In this document: positions 54,960 to 63,789 of the stretch, in pieces
How positions within the stretch are numbered: position 1 is the first letter of the stretch
Layout: each line of letters opens with the position of its first letter
From: Intrasporangium flavum
Lineage (GTDB): Bacteria > Actinomycetota > Actinomycetes > Actinomycetales > Dermatophilaceae
NCBI RefSeq assembly: GCF_001956915.1
Contig: NZ_MLJO01000003.1
Span: 310,001 to 374,000 of the forward strand
Direction of reading: 5' to 3'
DNA: 64,000 nucleotides
Notes under the pieces: generated by a model
Seen by the model: only the letters and a program-made list of their open reading frames with translations
Told to the model about the DNA's origin: nothing
Databases searched by the model: none
Position numbers and translations under genes: made by a program

Positions 54960-55828
54960 CGGAGCACCCGCTCTTCCTCGGGCAGGCGCCCGACCCACAC
55001 CATCGCGCGGTAGGCGACGACGCACAGGGCGGCCCCGACGGCGAGCACGACCCAGCCGACCGGCGAGGCGTAGGCGGCGAGGGAACGGCCGTTGAGGGCG
55101 AGCATCGCCAGGACGATCCACGGGGCGGCGACCGCGAGCCGGGCCGCGTTGACCGTCCAGCTCTGGCGCGTCTCGAGCTCGGCCCGGGTGCGCGCGTCTT
55201 CTCGCAGGAAGGAGGAGAGCGTGCGCAGCAGCTTGCCGAGGTCGCTGCCGCCGACCTCGCGCGCGATGCGCAGCGACTCGACGAGACGGTCGGCGACGGG
55301 GTCGCTCAGCCGCTCCTTGAGCCGGTCGAGGGAGTCGTGGAAGCGACCCGTGGTGCGGTAGTCCTCGGCGAAGGCCGCGAACGCCGGACGCAGCTCCTCG
55401 GGCCCCCGCGTGGACAGCTGGGCCAGCGCCTCGGGCAGCGCGAGCCCGGCGCGCACGCCCGACGTGACGTTGTCGACGACGTCCGGCCACAGGTCGCGCA
55501 GCTTGTTGCGCCGCGAGCGAGCGCGCATGCGCACCAGGGAGATCGGCGCGGCGCCGGCCATGACCGAGAAGCACAGCGAGATCGGGGCGACGCGGGTGAG
55601 CGCCAGGACGATGGCGAAGGTGAGCAGGAAGAGCACGACCGAGCCGACGATGACGTTGTTCGGCGTGATCGAGGCGTACCCCGCCTGGTTGAGGTGGTCG
55701 CGCAGCTCGACGACGAAGCCGGAACGCCGTGGGCCGGACTCGGGCGCCGGGGCCTGCGGCCAGAACGACCAGTAGACGAAGAAGACGCCCGCACCGAGGA
55801 GGAGCCCGATGACGAGCGGCGAGGTCAC
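54956..55828 (-). CDS. tadB: Type II secretion/Tad system membrane protein TadB
   Basis: 290 residues from GTG 55828, overlapping the cpaF stop by four bases. N-terminal helix, two helices near 60-100, T2SSF domain with LWPDVVDNVTSGVRAGLALPEALAQLSTRGPEELRPAFAAFAEDYRTTGRF and REVGGSDLGKLLRTLSSFLREDARTRAEL, and two helices at the C-terminus. It pairs with TadC as the platform for pilus assembly. With cpaF interrupted upstream, its transcription may be disturbed because the operon promoter is now beyond the element. Confidence 0.9.
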   Translation of the reverse strand: MTSPLVIGLLLGAGVFFVYWSFWPQAPAPESGPRRSGFVVELRDHLNQAGYASITPNNVIVGSVVLFLLTFAIVLALTRVAPISLCFSVMAGAAPISLVRMRARSRRNKLRDLWPDVVDNVTSGVRAGLALPEALAQLSTRGPEELRPAFAAFAEDYRTTGRFHDSLDRLKERLSDPVADRLVESLRIAREVGGSDLGKLLRTLSSFLREDARTRAELETRQSWTVNAARLAVAAPWIVLAMLALNGRSLAAYASPVGWVVLAVGAALCVVAYRAMVWVGRLPEEERVLR

Positions 55829-56436
55829 GACGCCTCCTGCGCGAGCAGGGCGGCGACGTCGTAGCCGGCCCGCTCGAAGGCCTCGTGGTGCGGCGGGAAG
55901 CCGTCGCCGCGCACGAGCCGGCCGCCACGCGTCGTGAAGAGGTCGGCGATCTCGATGACGTCGCCCTCGGCCCGGCCCGGGACGGCGACGATCTCGCGGA
56001 CCCGGCGCACGCCGTCGCGCTCGAGGGCGACGTGGACGACGAGGTCGACGGCGGCCGCCACGGTCGGCACGACGAAGCGGCTCGAGACGTTCTCGCCGGC
56101 GAGCAGCGGCAGGGTGCACATCTTCGTCACTGCCTCGCGGGCGCTGTTGGCGTGCAGCGTGCACATGCCGGGGACGCCGCTGTTGAGCGCGATGAGCAGG
56201 TCGAGGCTCTCCTCCTGGCGCACCTCGCCGACGATGATCCGCGACGGGCGCATGCGCAGGGCCTCCTTGACGAGGCGGCGCAGCGGCACCTCGCCGGTGC
56301 CCTCGAGGCTCGGCTGGCGGCACTGCATCGAGGCGACGTCGCGCAGCGGGATCTTCAGCTCGAAGACCTCCTCGCACGTGATGACGCGCTCGCGTGGCGG
56401 GATGGCGGCGGCGAGGCAGTTGAGGAGGGTCGTCTT
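55825..56436 (-). pseudogene. cpaF: 3' fragment of the Tad ATPase gene cpaF/tadA, interrupted in the Walker A motif
   Basis: The remaining 204 codons start at the Lys of the Walker A GKTT (AAG at 56436-56434): KTTLLNCLAAAIPPRERVITCEEVFELKI, then RDVASMQCRQPSLEGTGEVPLRRLVKEALRMRPSRIIVGEVRQEESLDLLIALNSGVPGMCTLHANSAREA (Walker B-like and His box of secretion ATPases) and an intact C-terminus ending LLAQEAS. The codons just before AAG read VKTT, and upstream lies foreign sequence; the Gly-rich first part of the P loop and the N-terminal half are missing. The reading frame happens to stay open into the element to 56601, but that product would lack ATP binding. The 5' half should lie past the right end of the element, outside the window. 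Confidence 0.9.
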
Positions 56437-56450
56437 GACTGCTTGTCGTT
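56428..56450. other. Element-chromosome junction (attL or attR) inside cpaF
   Basis: On the plus strand the conserved cpaF sequence ends at about 56437 (CTT of the GKTT Lys at 56434-56436, then GAC where GCC or similar would be expected for the preceding Gly). The sequence to the right (ACTGCTTGTCGTTTGAGAC) no longer codes for an ATPase. The short core shared with the other junction cannot be defined from one side only. A highly conserved coding motif as target fits a site-specific integrase. Confidence 0.7.
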
Positions 56451-57074: not shown

Positions 57075-57344
57075 ATGTCTGATACGACGGCTGCACCCGC
57101 CGTGGAGTGCCCGACGGCCGGCGACGACCCGCGTCGCATGACCGCTGCCGACCGCCGCGAGCGTGCTCGCATCGCCGCGTTGACCCGTCATCACCCCAAT
57201 GACCCCGAGACGCTCAAGGCGTCTCAGCGGTTTCGGGCAGAGCGCTACACAGAGCACGTTCGCCGAGTCCTAGACTCCGCTCCCCCGATGAGCCCATCGC
57301 AGAAAGCTCGGCTGACCGCCCTGCTCAGGGGGGCCGTGCGTTGA
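57075..57344 (+). CDS. Short basic protein preceding the primase-helicase
   Basis: 89 residues from ATG 57075 with GAGAGG six bases upstream. It begins MSDTTAAPAVECPTAGDDPRRMTAADRRERARIAALTRHHPND and is rich in Arg, His and Ala with no Cys motif and no membrane part. Similar small charged proteins often precede primases in actinobacterial elements. Its stop overlaps the TTG start of the primase (TTGA), so they are translationally coupled. Function unknown; perhaps a replication accessory factor. Confidence 0.65.
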   Translation: MSDTTAAPAVECPTAGDDPRRMTAADRRERARIAALTRHHPNDPETLKASQRFRAERYTEHVRRVLDSAPPMSPSQKARLTALLRGAVR

Positions 57345-59803
57345 CCACAAACGAATGGCCCCTCATGGAGGAGCCACCCGAGTCGTCCGCCACGACAACC
57401 GAATTCAGTGTAGAACCACGCCGGTCCCAAGGGCGCCAACCGCGCGGTGCCGCCGTCCGGGAACCGCATGGACTCGGGGCCCTCCGCGCCGCCGACCTCG
57501 AGCAATACCTCGATGCCGCCTTCGGCGAGGACACGGGCACAGCGTTCGTCGCCACAGGGTTCGAACCCTTCGCTGACGGTGACCGCTACAAGCACGGCCT
57601 CTGGAAGGAGACCCCGTTCTGGTGGCCCGGCGAGGCAGCCAGCCTGGTCGAGGCCGTCCTGCGCAATGCCGCGACGGGCTCGGACGTCTACGTCTGCCCA
57701 TACCTGATGAACGGTGACCGTCGCGCGAAGGGCGCGAGCGTCACTCGGACGAAGGTACACGCGGACATCGACGGACCCGTCGCGCTCGACCTCGTCAACG
57801 ATCTGGGCGGTTGGGCGGTCGCGTCCGGCTCGGCCGGTCACGGCCACGTGTACGTCGACCTGAACCGGTCTGTGTCGGCGTCCTGGCATGAAGCCTTGTG
57901 CCGAGGCTTGGGAGCGTACCTGGGGCACGCCGACGCGAAGGTGTCCGACAACGACCTACTCCGGCCGCCCGGAACCGTCAACAACAAGCCGGTTGCGTTC
58001 GGCACCGAGGACGCCGCCCGCGTGGAGTGGCTCGTGCGGCCCTCCGGGCGGCGATGGGACCCAGAGGATCTCGCCGATGCCTTGGGCATATCCCTGCCCG
58101 ACGAGTCGGGCGGCCAGCAGCTCCGGCCGGTGATCAACACCGTGAGAAAGGTGCATGTCGCCAGCCTGCCCCGGGGCGTTCGTGACGCGCTGTCGGAAGT
58201 CAGCGACGATCGCAGCGGCGACACCATGAGGGTGGTTGGTGCCTGCGTCGACGCGGGTCTGACGCTCGAGGAAACCCGTGCCGTTGTCCAAGGTCGCACC
58301 GATCTGGCAGAGCGACTGGCCCGCCGCCCTGACGATGACGTACTGCGATGCTGGTCGCGGGCCACGGAGTCGCGTGCCGTTCGACAGGGCACGACCGGAC
58401 CAGCGACCGGTCGCGTCGCATCCGTGACCCGGCTGCACGTGGCGGCCGAAGGGCCGACAGGAAACGACCAAGCTGTTCGTCAGCATCGAGGGCAGGCCCG
58501 GATCGCATATCGACTCGCCCAGACGTACGGTGGGCGGCTCATGCACGTCCACGGCCTCGGCTGGCACGTCTGGGACGGTCGTCGGTGGGTCGAGGACGAC
58601 CGGGGCGCTGCGATGCGGGCGGTGCTCGACGTCTTGCGCGCCGCGTTGGCGGACTCGATCCAGGACAAGGAACTGCGGGAGGACGTGCGACGTTGCGAAT
58701 CCGCCACGGGCCTGTCCGGGGTTCTCACCATCGCCGCCGCTCTGGAGCCGTTCGCGGTCACCGTGACGGACCTCGATCCGGACCCCTACCTGCTCAACGT
58801 CGCCAACGGTACGCTCGACCTGCACACGCTGCAGCTTCGCCCCCACGACCCGGCGGACAGGATCACCAAGGTCACGGCGGACGAGTACGACCCCACGGCG
58901 AGGGGCCCGATGTGGGACGCCTTCCTCAGTCGCGTGCTTCCTGATGCCGAGGTTCGCGGGTTCCTGCAGCGGTACGTCGGACTTGCCCTATGTGGCCGAG
59001 TCCTCGAGCACGTCCTCGCCATCCTCACTGGCACCGGACGGAACGGCAAGGGAGTCTTCTACGGAGCCGTGGCCGCGGCCCTCGGTGACTACGCGAGCAC
59101 CGCCGAGCCGGACCTGTTCATGCATCGGGAGAACGCCCACCCCACCGGTGAGATGGACCTGCTCGGGCTACGGTGGGTCGTCGTGTCCGAGTCCGACCAA
59201 GGCCGCCGGCTCGCCGAGGCCACGGTCAAACGGCTCACCGGAGGCGATCTGATCAAGGCTCGGCGGATGAGGCAGGACTTCGTGGCCTTCGCGCCGTCGC
59301 ACACTGCGGCGCTCGTCACGAACCACCTGCCGAAGGTTTCCGGTGATGATCCCGCTCTTTGGGCGCGCCTACGAGTCGTCCCGTTCGAGGTGGTCATCCC
59401 GGCCACGGAGCAGGACCCTCACCTGGCCGAGAAGCTCGAAAGGGAGAAACCGGCCATCCTGGCGTGGGCTGTCCGAGGTTGGCGCGACTACCAAACCCAC
59501 GGGTTGGCGGCACCGCGGGCCGTACGCAGCGCCACCGACGAATACCAGGCACACTCCGACGCCATCAAGGGCTTCCTCGACGACTGCTGCGACATCGGGA
59601 CCGGGTACGAAACCGAGGTCAGCCTCCTTTGGTACGCCTGGGGTGCGTGGCGGCTCGACGCCGGCGCAGAGGAAATCTCAAAGAAGGCCTTCGGCGAGGC
59701 CCTCGAGAAGCGGGGCTTCCCAGCTGCCAAGGGTAACAAGGGGATTCGCAAGCGCCGCGGCCTTCGTCTGAGCACGGAAGACGGTGAAGCGGACGTGGAC
59801 TGA
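57341..59803 (+). CDS. Fused AEP primase-polymerase and SF3/D5-like helicase
   Basis: 820 residues from TTG 57341. The N-terminal part carries archaeo-eukaryotic primase motifs: VHADIDG with D142 and D144, SGSAGHGHVYV with H169 and LRPPGTVNNK with R208. The C-terminal half is a D5-N/P4-type superfamily 3 helicase: LNVANGTLDLHTL before it, Walker A LTGTGRNGKGVFYGAV (K570), Walker B-like LLGLRWVVVSESDQ and sensor-like FAPSHTAALVTNHLPKVSGDDPALWARLRVVPFEVV. Such fusions start and drive replication of plasmids, phages and satellites. A region of strong inverted repeats follows, a possible replication origin. It is 820 residues, typical for the fusion. Confidence 0.9.
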   Translation: MTTNEWPLMEEPPESSATTTEFSVEPRRSQGRQPRGAAVREPHGLGALRAADLEQYLDAAFGEDTGTAFVATGFEPFADGDRYKHGLWKETPFWWPGEAASLVEAVLRNAATGSDVYVCPYLMNGDRRAKGASVTRTKVHADIDGPVALDLVNDLGGWAVASGSAGHGHVYVDLNRSVSASWHEALCRGLGAYLGHADAKVSDNDLLRPPGTVNNKPVAFGTEDAARVEWLVRPSGRRWDPEDLADALGISLPDESGGQQLRPVINTVRKVHVASLPRGVRDALSEVSDDRSGDTMRVVGACVDAGLTLEETRAVVQGRTDLAERLARRPDDDVLRCWSRATESRAVRQGTTGPATGRVASVTRLHVAAEGPTGNDQAVRQHRGQARIAYRLAQTYGGRLMHVHGLGWHVWDGRRWVEDDRGAAMRAVLDVLRAALADSIQDKELREDVRRCESATGLSGVLTIAAALEPFAVTVTDLDPDPYLLNVANGTLDLHTLQLRPHDPADRITKVTADEYDPTARGPMWDAFLSRVLPDAEVRGFLQRYVGLALCGRVLEHVLAILTGTGRNGKGVFYGAVAAALGDYASTAEPDLFMHRENAHPTGEMDLLGLRWVVVSESDQGRRLAEATVKRLTGGDLIKARRMRQDFVAFAPSHTAALVTNHLPKVSGDDPALWARLRVVPFEVVIPATEQDPHLAEKLEREKPAILAWAVRGWRDYQTHGLAAPRAVRSATDEYQAHSDAIKGFLDDCCDIGTGYETEVSLLWYAWGAWRLDAGAEEISKKAFGEALEKRGFPAAKGNKGIRKRRGLRLSTEDGEADVD

Positions 59804-59983: not shown

Positions 59984-60023
59984 TGGGCCGGCTCCCATCA
60001 TGCTCGGGCAGGGAGCCGGCCCA
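59984..60023 (+). terminator. Hairpin, possible terminator before the ligase gene
   Basis: TGGGCCGGCTCCC (59984-59996) pairs perfectly with GGGAGCCGGCCCA (60011-60023) with a 14-base loop. It lies about 100 bases before the ligase start and after the nested repeats, separating the replication gene from the cassette. The rest of the gap 59804-60119 shows no gene. A hairpin this strong without a T tract could also have another role. Confidence 0.6.
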
Positions 60024-60119
60024 CGTCGGTCGCCTGCACTGCCTTACCAGTTTTCGGTACTCGGACCTCGGGCGTCGGCCCGCAGCACCGCCGGCCTCCG
60101 ACCGGCCCTCCCGTGGGGC

Positions 60120-61085
60120 ATGGTGGACAACATGGCCGTCGTATCGCTTCAGGCGCCGGTCGCGCTCGCGCGACCCATTGGTGACCTCACTCCATCCGAA
60201 GTCAAGAATCTGGTGTGGGAGCCGAAATGGGACGGCTACCGGGCGCTGGTCGGCGGCGGGAAGATCTTCTCCCGCAACGGCACCAACCTCACGCCTCTGT
60301 TCCCGGACCTGACGCCGGCCCTGAGCTCACGGCTGCCCGACGACCTGGTCCTGGACGGCGAGGTCATCGCATGGGACCTGGCTGCCGGCCGGCTCGACTT
60401 CGAGGGGCTGCAGGCCCGGATGACCGCCGGTCGGCGGATCCGCGTGGTCGCCGCCCGACGTCCTGCACAGCTCGTCGTGTTCGACGTCCTCGCGGCCGGC
60501 GGTGAGGACCTGCGGGGACGACCGCTGCGGGAGCGCCGAGCGGTTCTCGAGCAGGCCCTGGCCGGCATCGCCTCTCCCATCGTGCTGTGCCAGCAGACCG
60601 ACGACATGGCCCTGGCCCGGGAGTGGTTCCAGACGCTGACAGCGGGCGGCATCGAGGGCCTGGTCATCAAGGATGTAAACAGCACCTACCCGACCTCGCC
60701 GGGTCAACGGGTGTGGTGGAAGGTCAAGGCCACGCGGACGCTGGACATGCTAGCGATCGGCTTCACCGGTGACCAAGCCGCGCCTACCTCCCTGGTGCTC
60801 GCCTTCCCTGGTGACGTGGACGAGGACGGCCGACCAGTCACGGCCGGCTCGACGACATCACTGCCGAAGGCTGTCGGCCGGTCGCTGTCGCCCTTGCTGC
60901 ACCCGACCGGCGAGACGTTCGAGCGCACCTTCGCATGGGGATCAGCTGCGCCCACGCGGGTGACGGTCGTGACGCCGTTCGTTGTCGAGGTCGAAGCAGA
61001 CGCCTCGGCGGCTGCCGGGGTGCTCCGCCATGCTGCTCGGCTGCATCGAGCCAGACCAGACCTCGACCCGGCAGAAGCCACCTGA
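60120..61085 (+). CDS. ATP-dependent DNA ligase
   Basis: 321 residues from ATG 60120 (ATG 60132 is equally possible; neither has a strong ribosome site). Motif I EPKWDGYRAL with the adenylated Lys36, motif III LVLDGEVIAWD, IIIa LVVFDVLA, IV GIEGLVIKDV and V VWWKVKATRTLD are complete, followed by an OB-fold-like C-terminus. Similar to LigC/LigD ligase domains but without polymerase or nuclease domains. ATP-dependent ligases in mobile elements seal breaks in repair or replication. It opens the cassette; the next gene starts 77 bases after its stop. Confidence 0.92.
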   Translation: MVDNMAVVSLQAPVALARPIGDLTPSEVKNLVWEPKWDGYRALVGGGKIFSRNGTNLTPLFPDLTPALSSRLPDDLVLDGEVIAWDLAAGRLDFEGLQARMTAGRRIRVVAARRPAQLVVFDVLAAGGEDLRGRPLRERRAVLEQALAGIASPIVLCQQTDDMALAREWFQTLTAGGIEGLVIKDVNSTYPTSPGQRVWWKVKATRTLDMLAIGFTGDQAAPTSLVLAFPGDVDEDGRPVTAGSTTSLPKAVGRSLSPLLHPTGETFERTFAWGSAAPTRVTVVTPFVVEVEADASAAAGVLRHAARLHRARPDLDPAEAT

Positions 61086-61162: not shown

Positions 61163-62431
61163 TTGCGAGTTCGGGTTCATCGTGGCAGCCACGAGGTGGG
61201 CGGTTCGTGTGTCGAGGTCGAGCATCGCAGTTCCCGGCTGGTCCTGGACGTCGGCAAGCCGTTGACGGCCGGCTGGGGGGAGTCCGTCCCTCTGCCGGAC
61301 GTGCCCGGTCTGGCGGACGGTTCCGACCGAGACCTGTTGGGGCTGCTGATCTCGCACCCGCACCTGGACCACTACGGCCTAGTCGATCAGGTCTCGGCAC
61401 GCGTGCCGGTCTTCGTGGGCCGGGCGGCCGCGGCGGTCATCGAGGCGGCGTCGTTCTTCAACACCTCGGGACCGGTGCTGACGCCTGCTGGCCACTGGAG
61501 CCACCTGACGCCACAAGTCTTCGGCCCCTTCACGGTGACGCCGCATCTGGTAGACCACTCGGCCTTCGACTCGTATGCGCTACTGGTGCAGGCGGGAGGA
61601 CGCCGACTGCTCTACACCGGCGACATGCGCGGTCACGGCCGCAAGAAGTCGCTGTTCGAGGCGATGACCCACGATCCACCGAGGAACGTTGATGTCCTGC
61701 TGATGGAGGGAACCCAGGTCGCTGATTCCACAACCTCTGCGACCGCCCCGGGGCACCATGGCGCCACATCCGAAGACCAGCTAGAGCTGCGCATGAGAGA
61801 CCTCTTCACGGCGACCACGGGCCTGCCCGTTGTCGTGTCGTCGGCTCAGAACATCGACCGGCTCGTCACGGTGTACCGCGCAGCCCGGCGTGCGCACCGC
61901 ATCCTGCTGGTCGACCTTTACACGGCGACCGTGGCGGCGGCGACCGGGAGGGCCACGATCCCGCAGCCCGGTTTCCCCGACCTGGGAGTCTACGTGCCGA
62001 ACCGTCAACGGGTCGCCGTCGAGACCTCCGGCCAGTTCCACCGCACCGCGCAGATCCGCCCGGTGCGCGTCTTCCCCGAGCAGATCGCCGCCGACCCGGC
62101 CCGGTACGTCGTCCTCTCCAGCGGCTCCACCGTCCCGGAACTCCTGCACCGAAACGCCCTCAAAGCGGACGGGGCCGTCATATGGTCGCTCTGGTCCGGG
62201 TACCTGAGCGAGGCCTCCGGTCGTCGCCTGAAGGAGACGCTCATGGCTGCAGGGGTGACGCTGATCGAGGCCCACACGTCCGGCCACGCGACCGTGCCCG
62301 ACCTGCAACGGCTTGTCGCCGCGATCAACCCCGGCCGAGTCGTGCCCATCCACACCGACGCACCGCACGCGTTCGCCGCGCTGTTCCCCCGAGCCAGCCA
62401 GGTTGCCGACGGCGACTGGTGGAATGTCTGA
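61163..62431 (+). CDS. RNase J/CPSF-like MBL-fold nuclease
   Basis: 422 residues from TTG 61163, with AGGGAG about seven bases upstream; GTG and ATG options further upstream overlap the ligase. Metal site SHPHLDHYG (H65, H67, D69, H70), then HLVDHSAFDSYALLVQ (His/Asp), RLLYTGDMRGHGRK, LLMEGTQ, and near the C-terminus EAHTSGHATVPDL (H371 and H375) with RVVPIHTDAPHAF. This order is that of beta-CASP/RNase J nucleases and the CPSF family, active on RNA or DNA ends. It lies between the ligase and the 444-residue gene, all on one strand. Confidence 0.88.
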   Translation: MRVRVHRGSHEVGGSCVEVEHRSSRLVLDVGKPLTAGWGESVPLPDVPGLADGSDRDLLGLLISHPHLDHYGLVDQVSARVPVFVGRAAAAVIEAASFFNTSGPVLTPAGHWSHLTPQVFGPFTVTPHLVDHSAFDSYALLVQAGGRRLLYTGDMRGHGRKKSLFEAMTHDPPRNVDVLLMEGTQVADSTTSATAPGHHGATSEDQLELRMRDLFTATTGLPVVVSSAQNIDRLVTVYRAARRAHRILLVDLYTATVAAATGRATIPQPGFPDLGVYVPNRQRVAVETSGQFHRTAQIRPVRVFPEQIAADPARYVVLSSGSTVPELLHRNALKADGAVIWSLWSGYLSEASGRRLKETLMAAGVTLIEAHTSGHATVPDLQRLVAAINPGRVVPIHTDAPHAFAALFPRASQVADGDWWNV

Positions 62432-62454
62432 TCCACCACGAAAGGGCCTGCCAC

Positions 62455-63789
62455 ATGTTGACCCATGAAGACCTGATGGACGCCGCGCCGCGGCTCGGTT
62501 TGGAGCACGCCCACAACCGCAAGGACTACAAGAACAGCATCGGGCGCGCGGTCATCCGCGGCGTCTACCAAGGGACACGCGCTGTCGCGGTGTCCGGAGA
62601 CACCAAGCTCATGTGCGCATCCCTGATCGACCTGCTCGACCTGCACGCCTCAGGCCAGCCGGCTCCCGCGGGCGCCTCTGTCGCACCGGACGAGGTCACC
62701 ATGCTCTTCGCGGCCGACCCGGCCCACCGCGAAGGGCCGGACGCGCTCCGCACCCTGGCCAGCAGCATGGTGACGGGGCCCAGCGTCAACCTCGTCGAGG
62801 TCGCTCCCGACGGCACGGCAGCCGCCGTCGAGGCGGAACCGGTCGACTTCGGCGCCGGGGCCGACCCCGCCAAGGAGTACAGGTACACCCGCTGGCACGA
62901 CCTACTCATGGGCGTTGCATCGCCGCCGGCGTTGCTGGCCGAGATCATCGACAAGGTGGGCCGACCCGAGCTGCGGGCGTATCCCCAGCTCACCGCCAAG
63001 GGCGAGTGGTCGCTTCGGGTCGAAGGCGTCGAGGCCGGACGCTACGCGAGGGGCCGGCTCACGCTTAGCGTCGGCAAGGACGGCTCCGCGGACCCCGTGA
63101 CCGGCACCCGTCGGATGAGCTCGCCTCGCACCAAGTGGCAGCAGGCGACGGGTCTGACCTCGCCGCTGGTCATCAGCGAGGACGACGACCTTTCCGCTGG
63201 TGTGACTGCACTCGCCGCTTTCGCCGACGCGTGGCTGCCTGCGCGGAAGACCCTTTCAGCAGCTGCGAAGCAGGAAGAGCATGCCTTGGAGTCCCGGGTG
63301 CTGCGCGGGCTCGTCCCGCTCACGCCCCGCGGCGGTGGTCGGCTGCAGGTGCTCGACCCAGGCGAGCACGGCGGCGACCACAGAGGGATCGTCAACTGGG
63401 GCAGCCAGTTCCCCACTCGATGGGGACACGACGGCGGCAACTCCGCCCGGTACCTCGATGCGCTGCTGCGCGACGGCGACACCCCGTGGGCCCTCGAGCT
63501 CAAGGCCGCGCTGCCCGGGAGCGGACTCCGGGCCTACTACCGGCACGCGGTCGGCCAAGCAGTCCTGTACCGCCAGTTCATCAAGACCGCCACCCCGCTG
63601 CGGCCGTGGTTCGACCGGTACGGCCTCGACCAAGCCAAGGTCCGCGCAGCCGTCGTGATCCCCGAACCGACCGCCGGTCCGGCGGACCTTGTCGACCGCC
63701 AGGCAGCGCTCTGCCGCATGTTCGGTCTCGAGCTCTTCTGGGTCTCGGACACCTACGCCGCTCTCCACGCGATCCCGTACGAGGCGTAG
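62455..63789 (+). CDS. Uncharacterised protein with PD-(D/E)XK-like nuclease signature
   Basis: 444 residues from ATG 62455 with GAAAGGG eight bases upstream. The N-terminal two thirds are unrecognised (starts MLTHEDLMDAAPRLGLEHAH; contains YRYTRWHDLLMGVASPP and WSLRVEGVEAGRYARGRL). The C-terminal part holds D335/D340/D342, WALELKAAL with E348 and K350, and then AVGQAVLYRQF with Q368 and Y372: a D...ExK...QxxxY arrangement typical of RecB/Cas4-like PD-(D/E)XK nucleases. It follows the MBL gene by 23 bases, and a macro-domain gene comes eight bases later. The nuclease assignment is an inference from spacing and motifs, not from whole-domain similarity. Confidence 0.7.
   Translation: MLTHEDLMDAAPRLGLEHAHNRKDYKNSIGRAVIRGVYQGTRAVAVSGDTKLMCASLIDLLDLHASGQPAPAGASVAPDEVTMLFAADPAHREGPDALRTLASSMVTGPSVNLVEVAPDGTAAAVEAEPVDFGAGADPAKEYRYTRWHDLLMGVASPPALLAEIIDKVGRPELRAYPQLTAKGEWSLRVEGVEAGRYARGRLTLSVGKDGSADPVTGTRRMSSPRTKWQQATGLTSPLVISEDDDLSAGVTALAAFADAWLPARKTLSAAAKQEEHALESRVLRGLVPLTPRGGGRLQVLDPGEHGGDHRGIVNWGSQFPTRWGHDGGNSARYLDALLRDGDTPWALELKAALPGSGLRAYYRHAVGQAVLYRQFIKTATPLRPWFDRYGLDQAKVRAAVVIPEPTAGPADLVDRQAALCRMFGLELFWVSDTYAALHAIPYEA

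Follow-up and report, generated by a model that had tools for sequence, protein, structure and literature searches.

Introduction

Metallo-beta-lactamase (MBL) nucleases are, according to a recent report, accessories of bacterial immunity that recur together with proteases, and a HamM-type MBL nuclease with a trypsin-like protease is described from Hachiman, AVAST, Lamassu and DRT loci (PMC12799240). MBL-fold genes are also included in CoCoNuT superoperons, defence loci that contain helicase-DUF1998 and PLD genes as well (PMC11090510). In the literature searched, mainly open-access and mostly at abstract level, we found no description of a module composed of an RNase-J-like MBL protein and a PD-(D/E)XK protein. 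Here we describe such an arrangement in a 64,000-nucleotide stretch of Intrasporangium flavum DNA (the window), where the gene of a 444-residue protein, P0001, follows that of a beta-CASP, RNase-J-like MBL hydrolase. In our reading, the two genes form a module, likely for defence, with the MBL nuclease as its constant member and P0001 as its PD-(D/E)XK nuclease subunit; we give this account a probability of roughly 0.6.

Results

P0001 is encoded on the + strand at 62455..63789, an assignment based on an open reading frame from an ATG, the motif, its conservation and profile evidence. GAAAGG lies upstream of the start codon (62440-62445), and 23 bp separate the start from the end of the MBL gene on the same strand. 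The initial annotation had reported a 444-residue ORF with a D-ExK-QxxxY signature near its C-terminus, and D335, D340, D342, E348, K350, Q368 and Y372 are all found where it placed them. The order D, E-x-K and then Q-x3-Y is that of the PD-(D/E)XK superfamily. The only full-length homolog found, in genome G236, has 687 aa, is 32% identical (BLASTP E 8e-36) and covers nearly all of P0001. D335, E348, K350, Q368 and Y372 are all identical in the two proteins, which also have the segments GSQFPTxWGH, YLDALL, ELK, YYRxA and QAVLYRxFI in common. The acids D335-D342, previously pointed out as a group, are kept there at D335, whereas D340 and D342 are replaced (by R and T); D335 is therefore the metal-binding candidate. 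The homolog has an additional C-terminal part with a TY-Chap2 match below cut-off (23.2 bits vs 27).

Of 2000 shuffles of P0001, 16 reproduced the plain D-ExK-QxxxY pattern and 64 the version with hydrophobic context; the latter is also present in 25 of 624 other ORFs of the MBL family loci (those of at least 150 aa at a distance of over 2.5 kb from the MBL gene). Since shuffles and distant ORFs match too, the motif alone is weak and requires outside support. Taken with its conservation and the profile evidence presented below, the motif is real.

P0001 appears to be a new and rare branch of the PD-(D/E)XK fold. A sample of 396 genomes of its phylum contained the family in at least two (its own and G236, considering the best four candidates per genome). 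Among the best 2-4 candidates per genome, the class-level search (394 genomes) returned its own genome and a weak match in G720, and the order-level search (297 genomes) its own genome only; among 30 genomes from the order of G236, G236 alone matches. The genome samples for the phylum, class and order searches overlap. With tblastn, neither the 72,556 plasmid records nor the 50,697 phage records yielded a match to P0001 at E<=0.001, and 0 of 25 candidate stretches in genome contigs were confirmed. In viral contigs, the 47 candidate stretches obtained with alignment A1 contained 0 P0001 homologs, and two DNA patterns returned 0 and 8 stretches, the eight being judged chance from their frames. 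In G236, the P0001 homolog and the MBL gene are convergent and about 2.4 kb apart, so there is no operon there; the MBL proteins of the window and of G236 are 54% identical. The G720 match (L008:583-1845) is a MrcB_N-domain protein with a weak match to the P0001 profile in its C-terminal motif segment (E 9.8e-5). This C-terminal part resembles the nuclease core of P0001; unlike P0001, the protein carries an N-terminal MrcB_N domain, and the 3.2 kb of sequence inspected around it contain no MBL family match.

Searches of Pfam, PADLOC, NCBIfam and PHROGs with the whole of P0001 returned nothing at E<=1. The remark that its first ~300 residues resemble nothing holds for these databases, but the region is common to P0001 and the G236 homolog. 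The label "RecB/Cas4-like", on the other hand, found no specific support. Cas4 has a four-cysteine iron-sulphur cluster; P0001 is without one, since C54 and C420 are its only cysteines. No RecB-like exonuclease family profile in Pfam or NCBIfam matches P0001 at E<=1, and the nearest folds of its relative, the partner family c4 presented below, are PaqCI, EndoMS and McrC; Dna2 comes further down (Z 4.6). A PDB sequence search with alignment A1 returned an unrelated protein as its best match (E 0.099).

The conserved partner gene, 61163..62431 (+), encodes a beta-CASP RNase-J-like MBL hydrolase with Pfam Lactamase_B_2 and RMMBL matches above cut-off. Its open frame runs from 60935 and the profile match from 61157; an in-frame TTG preceded by AGGGAG, at 61163, is a likely start. 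HxHxDH, H135, D157, SGHA and PxH are invariant in 9/9 MBL sequences (alignment A3); the protein carries the residue set of an active beta-CASP enzyme and is predicted to be active. The RNase J cut-off (NCBIfam TIGR00649, 400 bits) is not reached (50.3 bits). This MBL family is present in at least 11 of 396 phylum genomes at E<=1e-50, and relatives occur on eight plasmid records at E<=1e-20. In several of the seven plasmid records examined, the hypothetical protein adjoining the MBL gene has a PD-(D/E)XK-like segment. A small GIFWxV protein (~125-160 aa) adjoins the MBL gene in four plasmid loci (L010:5543-5938, L011:5501-5977, L013:7241-7615, L016:5498-5980) and might be a further component.

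Scans with the MBL alignment supplied the best 80 of 166 confirmed genome loci plus five viral-contig loci. Loci with an A3-HMM score above 170 were taken as family, and L069-L075 were assigned to the outgroup by hand, though L069 and L071 are slightly above 170; L001, L004, L007 and L009 were excluded as duplicates, while the apparent near-duplicates L033 and L034 were counted separately. An ORF adjacent to the MBL gene carries the strict PD-(D/E)XK motif in 42/67 family loci versus 1/26 of the more distant MBL loci. Per ORF, the motif is present in 45/108 adjacent to the MBL gene versus 25/624 others. An adjacent same-strand PD-(D/E)XK-type neighbour is found in 55/67 family loci, 49 by profile and six by motif only (L043, L046, L049, L057, L058, L059); these profile counts on the 67 loci are partly circular, because the partner clusters were built from motif-preselected ORFs of the same loci. 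The 49 ORFs with a profile match that lie within 1 kb of the MBL gene share its strand without exception, with models that were themselves built from same-strand neighbours, and 46 of the 49 overlap the MBL gene or lie within 4 bp of it, overlaps that are inflated because frames were taken stop-to-stop. As an independent test, nine later loci outside the models were inspected: the partner is recognised in seven and in two there is none. An ADP-ribosylglycohydrolase gene sits between partner and MBL in one of these later loci, L122.

The linkage is not without exceptions: 12/67 family loci have no adjacent PD-(D/E)XK partner by profile or motif. One of the 12 is L026, whose partner lies at a distance of 1.2 kb, and some others show a weak candidate by eye; in L028, among the closest MBL relatives (54% identity), nothing was recognised beside the MBL gene. 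Far profile matches on the opposite strand occur in L024 (6.3 kb from the MBL gene) and L063 (4.1 kb). Besides the window's own phylum, the pairing is present in records whose titles include Alphaproteobacteria, Bacteroidia, Chloroflexi, Omnitrophota and Spirochaetaceae, among others. When 64 neighbours that bear the motif were clustered by BLAST, they fell into groups of 20, 8, 5, 5 and 3 members, then smaller ones. By BLAST there are at least seven sequence clusters in addition to that of P0001; profile comparison relates some of them (c1-c3, c1-c5 and c2-c3). The MBL protein is thus constant while its PD-(D/E)XK partner changes across loci, and our computations tie it to many PD-(D/E)XK families. 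In L124:79-2242, MBL and c4 partner lie in one in-frame open frame, which is afterwards broken by a frame disruption. Other arrangements were noticed in passing. ADP-ribosylglycohydrolase-like genes lie near the MBL gene at L122:3166-4179, L026:5639-6898 and L049:3742-4851 (Pfam-checked in L122 and L026); in L122 and L026 the gene is between the MBL gene and the PD-(D/E)XK partner and may be a third component. A single frame, L040:4629-7646 (+), joins an MBL domain to an AAA ATPase domain.

The link between P0001 and this set of partners appears only in profile-profile comparison, with cluster c4. A profile of P0001 and its G236 homolog scored 31.7 against c4 in hhalign, above all of 200 column shuffles (maximum 23.4; 0/200 as high) and the reversed profile (13.2); with one more c4 sequence the score is 32.7 (maximum 17.9; 0/100 shuffles as high). 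The claim is carried by the shuffles, because the hhalign probability is only 12-15%. A plain HMMER search with the c4 profile listed neither P0001 nor the G236 homolog at E<=50. Against other clusters, c2 and c3 are slightly above shuffles over short stretches, and c1, c5, c6 and c7 are not above shuffles. The alignment, whose final form spans profile columns 299-436, pairs D335 with the aspartate of the c4 motif IDILAR, E348/K350 with E-x-K, Q368/Y372 with QxxxY and E275-H276 with the EHR motif. A first run also aligned the WSLRxxGxEA segment of P0001 (185-208) with the c4 hairpin LRYxGQxVA, and a later run aligned the nuclease core only. Columns D206, E224, K226, Q241 and Y245 of c4 are invariant in 6/6 sequences. 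A MAFFT alignment of P0001 with c4 (A4) misplaced the QxxxY region and was set aside.

Structure prediction for the PD-(D/E)XK core, proposed earlier as a check on P0001, could be carried through only on its relative. The AlphaFold model of P0001 from its lone sequence was useless and discarded (pLDDT 37.7); the fold was obtained for c4. The c4 model is good (pLDDT 77.2, pTM 0.83), with an N-terminal part that rests on few alignment rows. Residues 147-329 match PaqCI (Z 8.5), EndoMS (8.2), McrC (6.3), BsmI (6.3) and FokI (6.0), followed by Can2 (5.6), HamA (5.2), SduA (5.1), Card1 (5.0) and Dna2 (4.6), Z near 8 being middling on the tool's own scale. All those from PaqCI to Card1 are PD-(D/E)XK enzymes. 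A Foldseek search of the model against PDB and BFVD gave no match at E<=0.001. By its predicted model, the c4 family has the PD-(D/E)XK fold, nearest to PaqCI and EndoMS. The PD-(D/E)XK assignment of P0001 itself is supported by conserved motif residues, by the similarity of its profile to one of the MBL-linked partner families and by the fold predicted for that family. Its putative nuclease core, delimited by hhalign to c4 and by the c4-model fold, covers approximately residues 275-444 (63277..63786, +) and contains the E275-H276 helix, D335, E348-x-K350 and Q368xxxY372.

P0001 lies in a mobile element. On the + strand, a P4-family primase/helicase (57341..59803; TIGR01613, 315 bits against a cut-off of 108.7), an ATP-dependent, LigC-like DNA ligase (60000..61085; Pfam DNA_ligase_A_M 1.9e-33, NF006078 below cut-off), the MBL gene and P0001 follow one another, with the ligase directly upstream of the MBL gene. 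The element splits the host cpaF/tadA ATPase gene, whose C-terminal half is at 55825..56437 (-) (PF00437); PF00437 halves lie at contig 366035-366436 and 401202-401621. The left junction, found by eye, is CAAGACG (minus-strand reading) in the Walker A codons at 56431..56437, and the same 7 bp, likewise found by eye, occur outside the window at contig 401202-401208. Since both junctions share CAAGACG, the element measures about 34.8 kb. At its far end lies the gene of a large serine recombinase, with Resolvase and Recombinase domains above cut-off. Other genes of the element code for type I restriction, specificity and methylation proteins and for a type IV restriction enzyme. P0001 thus travels as cargo on a mobile element that carries restriction genes. 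Two further genes were noticed on the same element. One (L003:1403-2410, +) encodes 335 aa with no Pfam match and a VDML...ITELK stretch that resembles another PD-(D/E)XK motif; the other (L002:10823-13084, +) is an AAA_16/nSTAND-like ATPase fused to Schlafen AlbA_2, with no PADLOC match at E<=1e-5.

Defence genes were also looked for around the MBL family. In L110:3-5462, BrxA-BrxB-BrxC come directly after an MBL-c4 pair. The MBL and c4 nuclease of L110 could be a BREX accessory. A PADLOC scan of neighbours gave 318 families for the MBL family versus 131 for the outgroup, a comparison that is confounded and suggestive at most because the two samples were picked differently (74 of 179 family candidate ORFs, longest first, from 47 loci; 74 of 98 outgroup ORFs, 24 dropped by hand). 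PADLOC 2023 gave no match at E<=1 for the MBL-P0001 pair of the window.

Discussion

Adjacency to the MBL gene, the linkage of the MBL family, the c4 profile match and the c4 fold lead us to regard P0001 as, very probably, the nuclease partner in an MBL-nuclease module with interchangeable nuclease subunits. From the setting we infer a defence role for this module. Its target and the order in which its members would act are likewise proposals.

The neighbourhood itself suggests other roles. With primase, ligase, MBL and P0001 consecutive on the + strand and MBL relatives on eight plasmid records, P0001 could be a replication or recombination nuclease which, together with primase and ligase, processes the element's own DNA, the MBL protein being incidental. 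Against this, the MBL-PD-(D/E)XK link recurs in contigs of many phyla, once beside BREX, and phmmer detected no relative of the window ligase in the other MBL loci compared; we hold the idea to be unlikely, if the least unlikely of the alternatives. The absence of a ligase relative from those loci weighs equally on a nucleic-acid repair module, in which ligase, MBL nuclease and PD-(D/E)XK nuclease would clean and seal broken DNA or RNA ends. Beta-CASP enzymes and LigC-type ligases do work in end processing, and the ligase is directly upstream here, but an MBL family of such sporadic occurrence does not look like housekeeping repair, and we think this somewhat less probable than the element's own nuclease.

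Genes that overlap or abut, strong linkage and the swapping of one member would also suit a toxin-antitoxin-like pair, with the PD-(D/E)XK protein as a self-directed toxin that the MBL protein restrains or reverses, or with the roles exchanged. The constant member, however, has a complete metal site, which is unusual in an antitoxin, and MBL loci without a visible partner occur, so that such a pair is improbable, to a degree close to that of the element nuclease. We would place at the same level a catalytically silent PD-(D/E)XK fold that would do no more than serve the MBL nuclease as a recognition or adaptor subunit: some neighbouring ORFs, e.g., in L100, have weak or atypical motifs, yet D, E, K, Q and Y are all retained in P0001 and its homolog, and the corresponding c4 columns are invariant. 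That the motif of P0001 arose by chance in an unrelated protein is very improbable: the plain pattern does appear in shuffled sequences at the rate given above, but it is conserved in a homolog of 32% identity and the profile score exceeds all 300 column shuffles.

Returning to a module of two nucleases, we propose the following division of labour. The MBL protein would act in a general way, as a 5'-3' exo/endonuclease or as a maturation enzyme. The PD-(D/E)XK protein, here P0001, which changes rapidly, may cut and probably recognise the target, either foreign DNA or RNA, with its divergent N-terminal part conferring specificity. One of the two proteins would probably license, load or finish the cut of the other; the MBL enzyme would process the target. 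The likely role would be to protect the cell or the element from phages or plasmids. A broader proposal, that we are looking at a widespread antiviral system still without a name, in which an RNase-J-like beta-CASP nuclease is combined with exchangeable PD-(D/E)XK specificity or effector modules and spread by mobile elements, is one we make tentatively, at slightly under even odds.

Compared with described enzymes, the core fold of the c4 relative is like that of PaqCI (type IIS), EndoMS/NucS and McrC, and P0001 has the D...ExK...QxxxY order; it differs from them in its lack of Pfam, NCBIfam, PADLOC or PHROGs matches, in its other N-terminal part and in the MBL gene alongside. The window MBL protein, in turn, has the HxHxDH, SGHA and PxH motifs and the RMMBL domain of RNase J and other beta-CASP MBL enzymes, but it is far under the RNase J cut-off and its relatives are encoded with PD-(D/E)XK proteins, some of them on plasmids. 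A possible likeness to CoCoNuT is seen in L020, where a member of the window MBL family follows a helicase with an MrfA Zn-binding domain; the consulted part of the CoCoNuT account names no PD-(D/E)XK partner for its MBL gene (PMC11090510). Another parallel in arrangement is HamM with its protease, which is like the window pair in that an MBL nuclease is tied to a second defence enzyme and repeatedly acquired. As described, HamM is a ComEC-like MBL with a fused protease partner, whereas the window has an RNase-J-like MBL with a separate PD-(D/E)XK protein (PMC12799240). No protease domain was found in the four window genes scanned (E<=1) or in six further genes of L002 (E<=0.1). A different MBL branch from the protease-linked one is thus tied here to PD-(D/E)XK proteins, in what looks like a new form of nuclease-based immunity; if it is a defence system, the module is of a two-nuclease type with one constant and one variable subunit.
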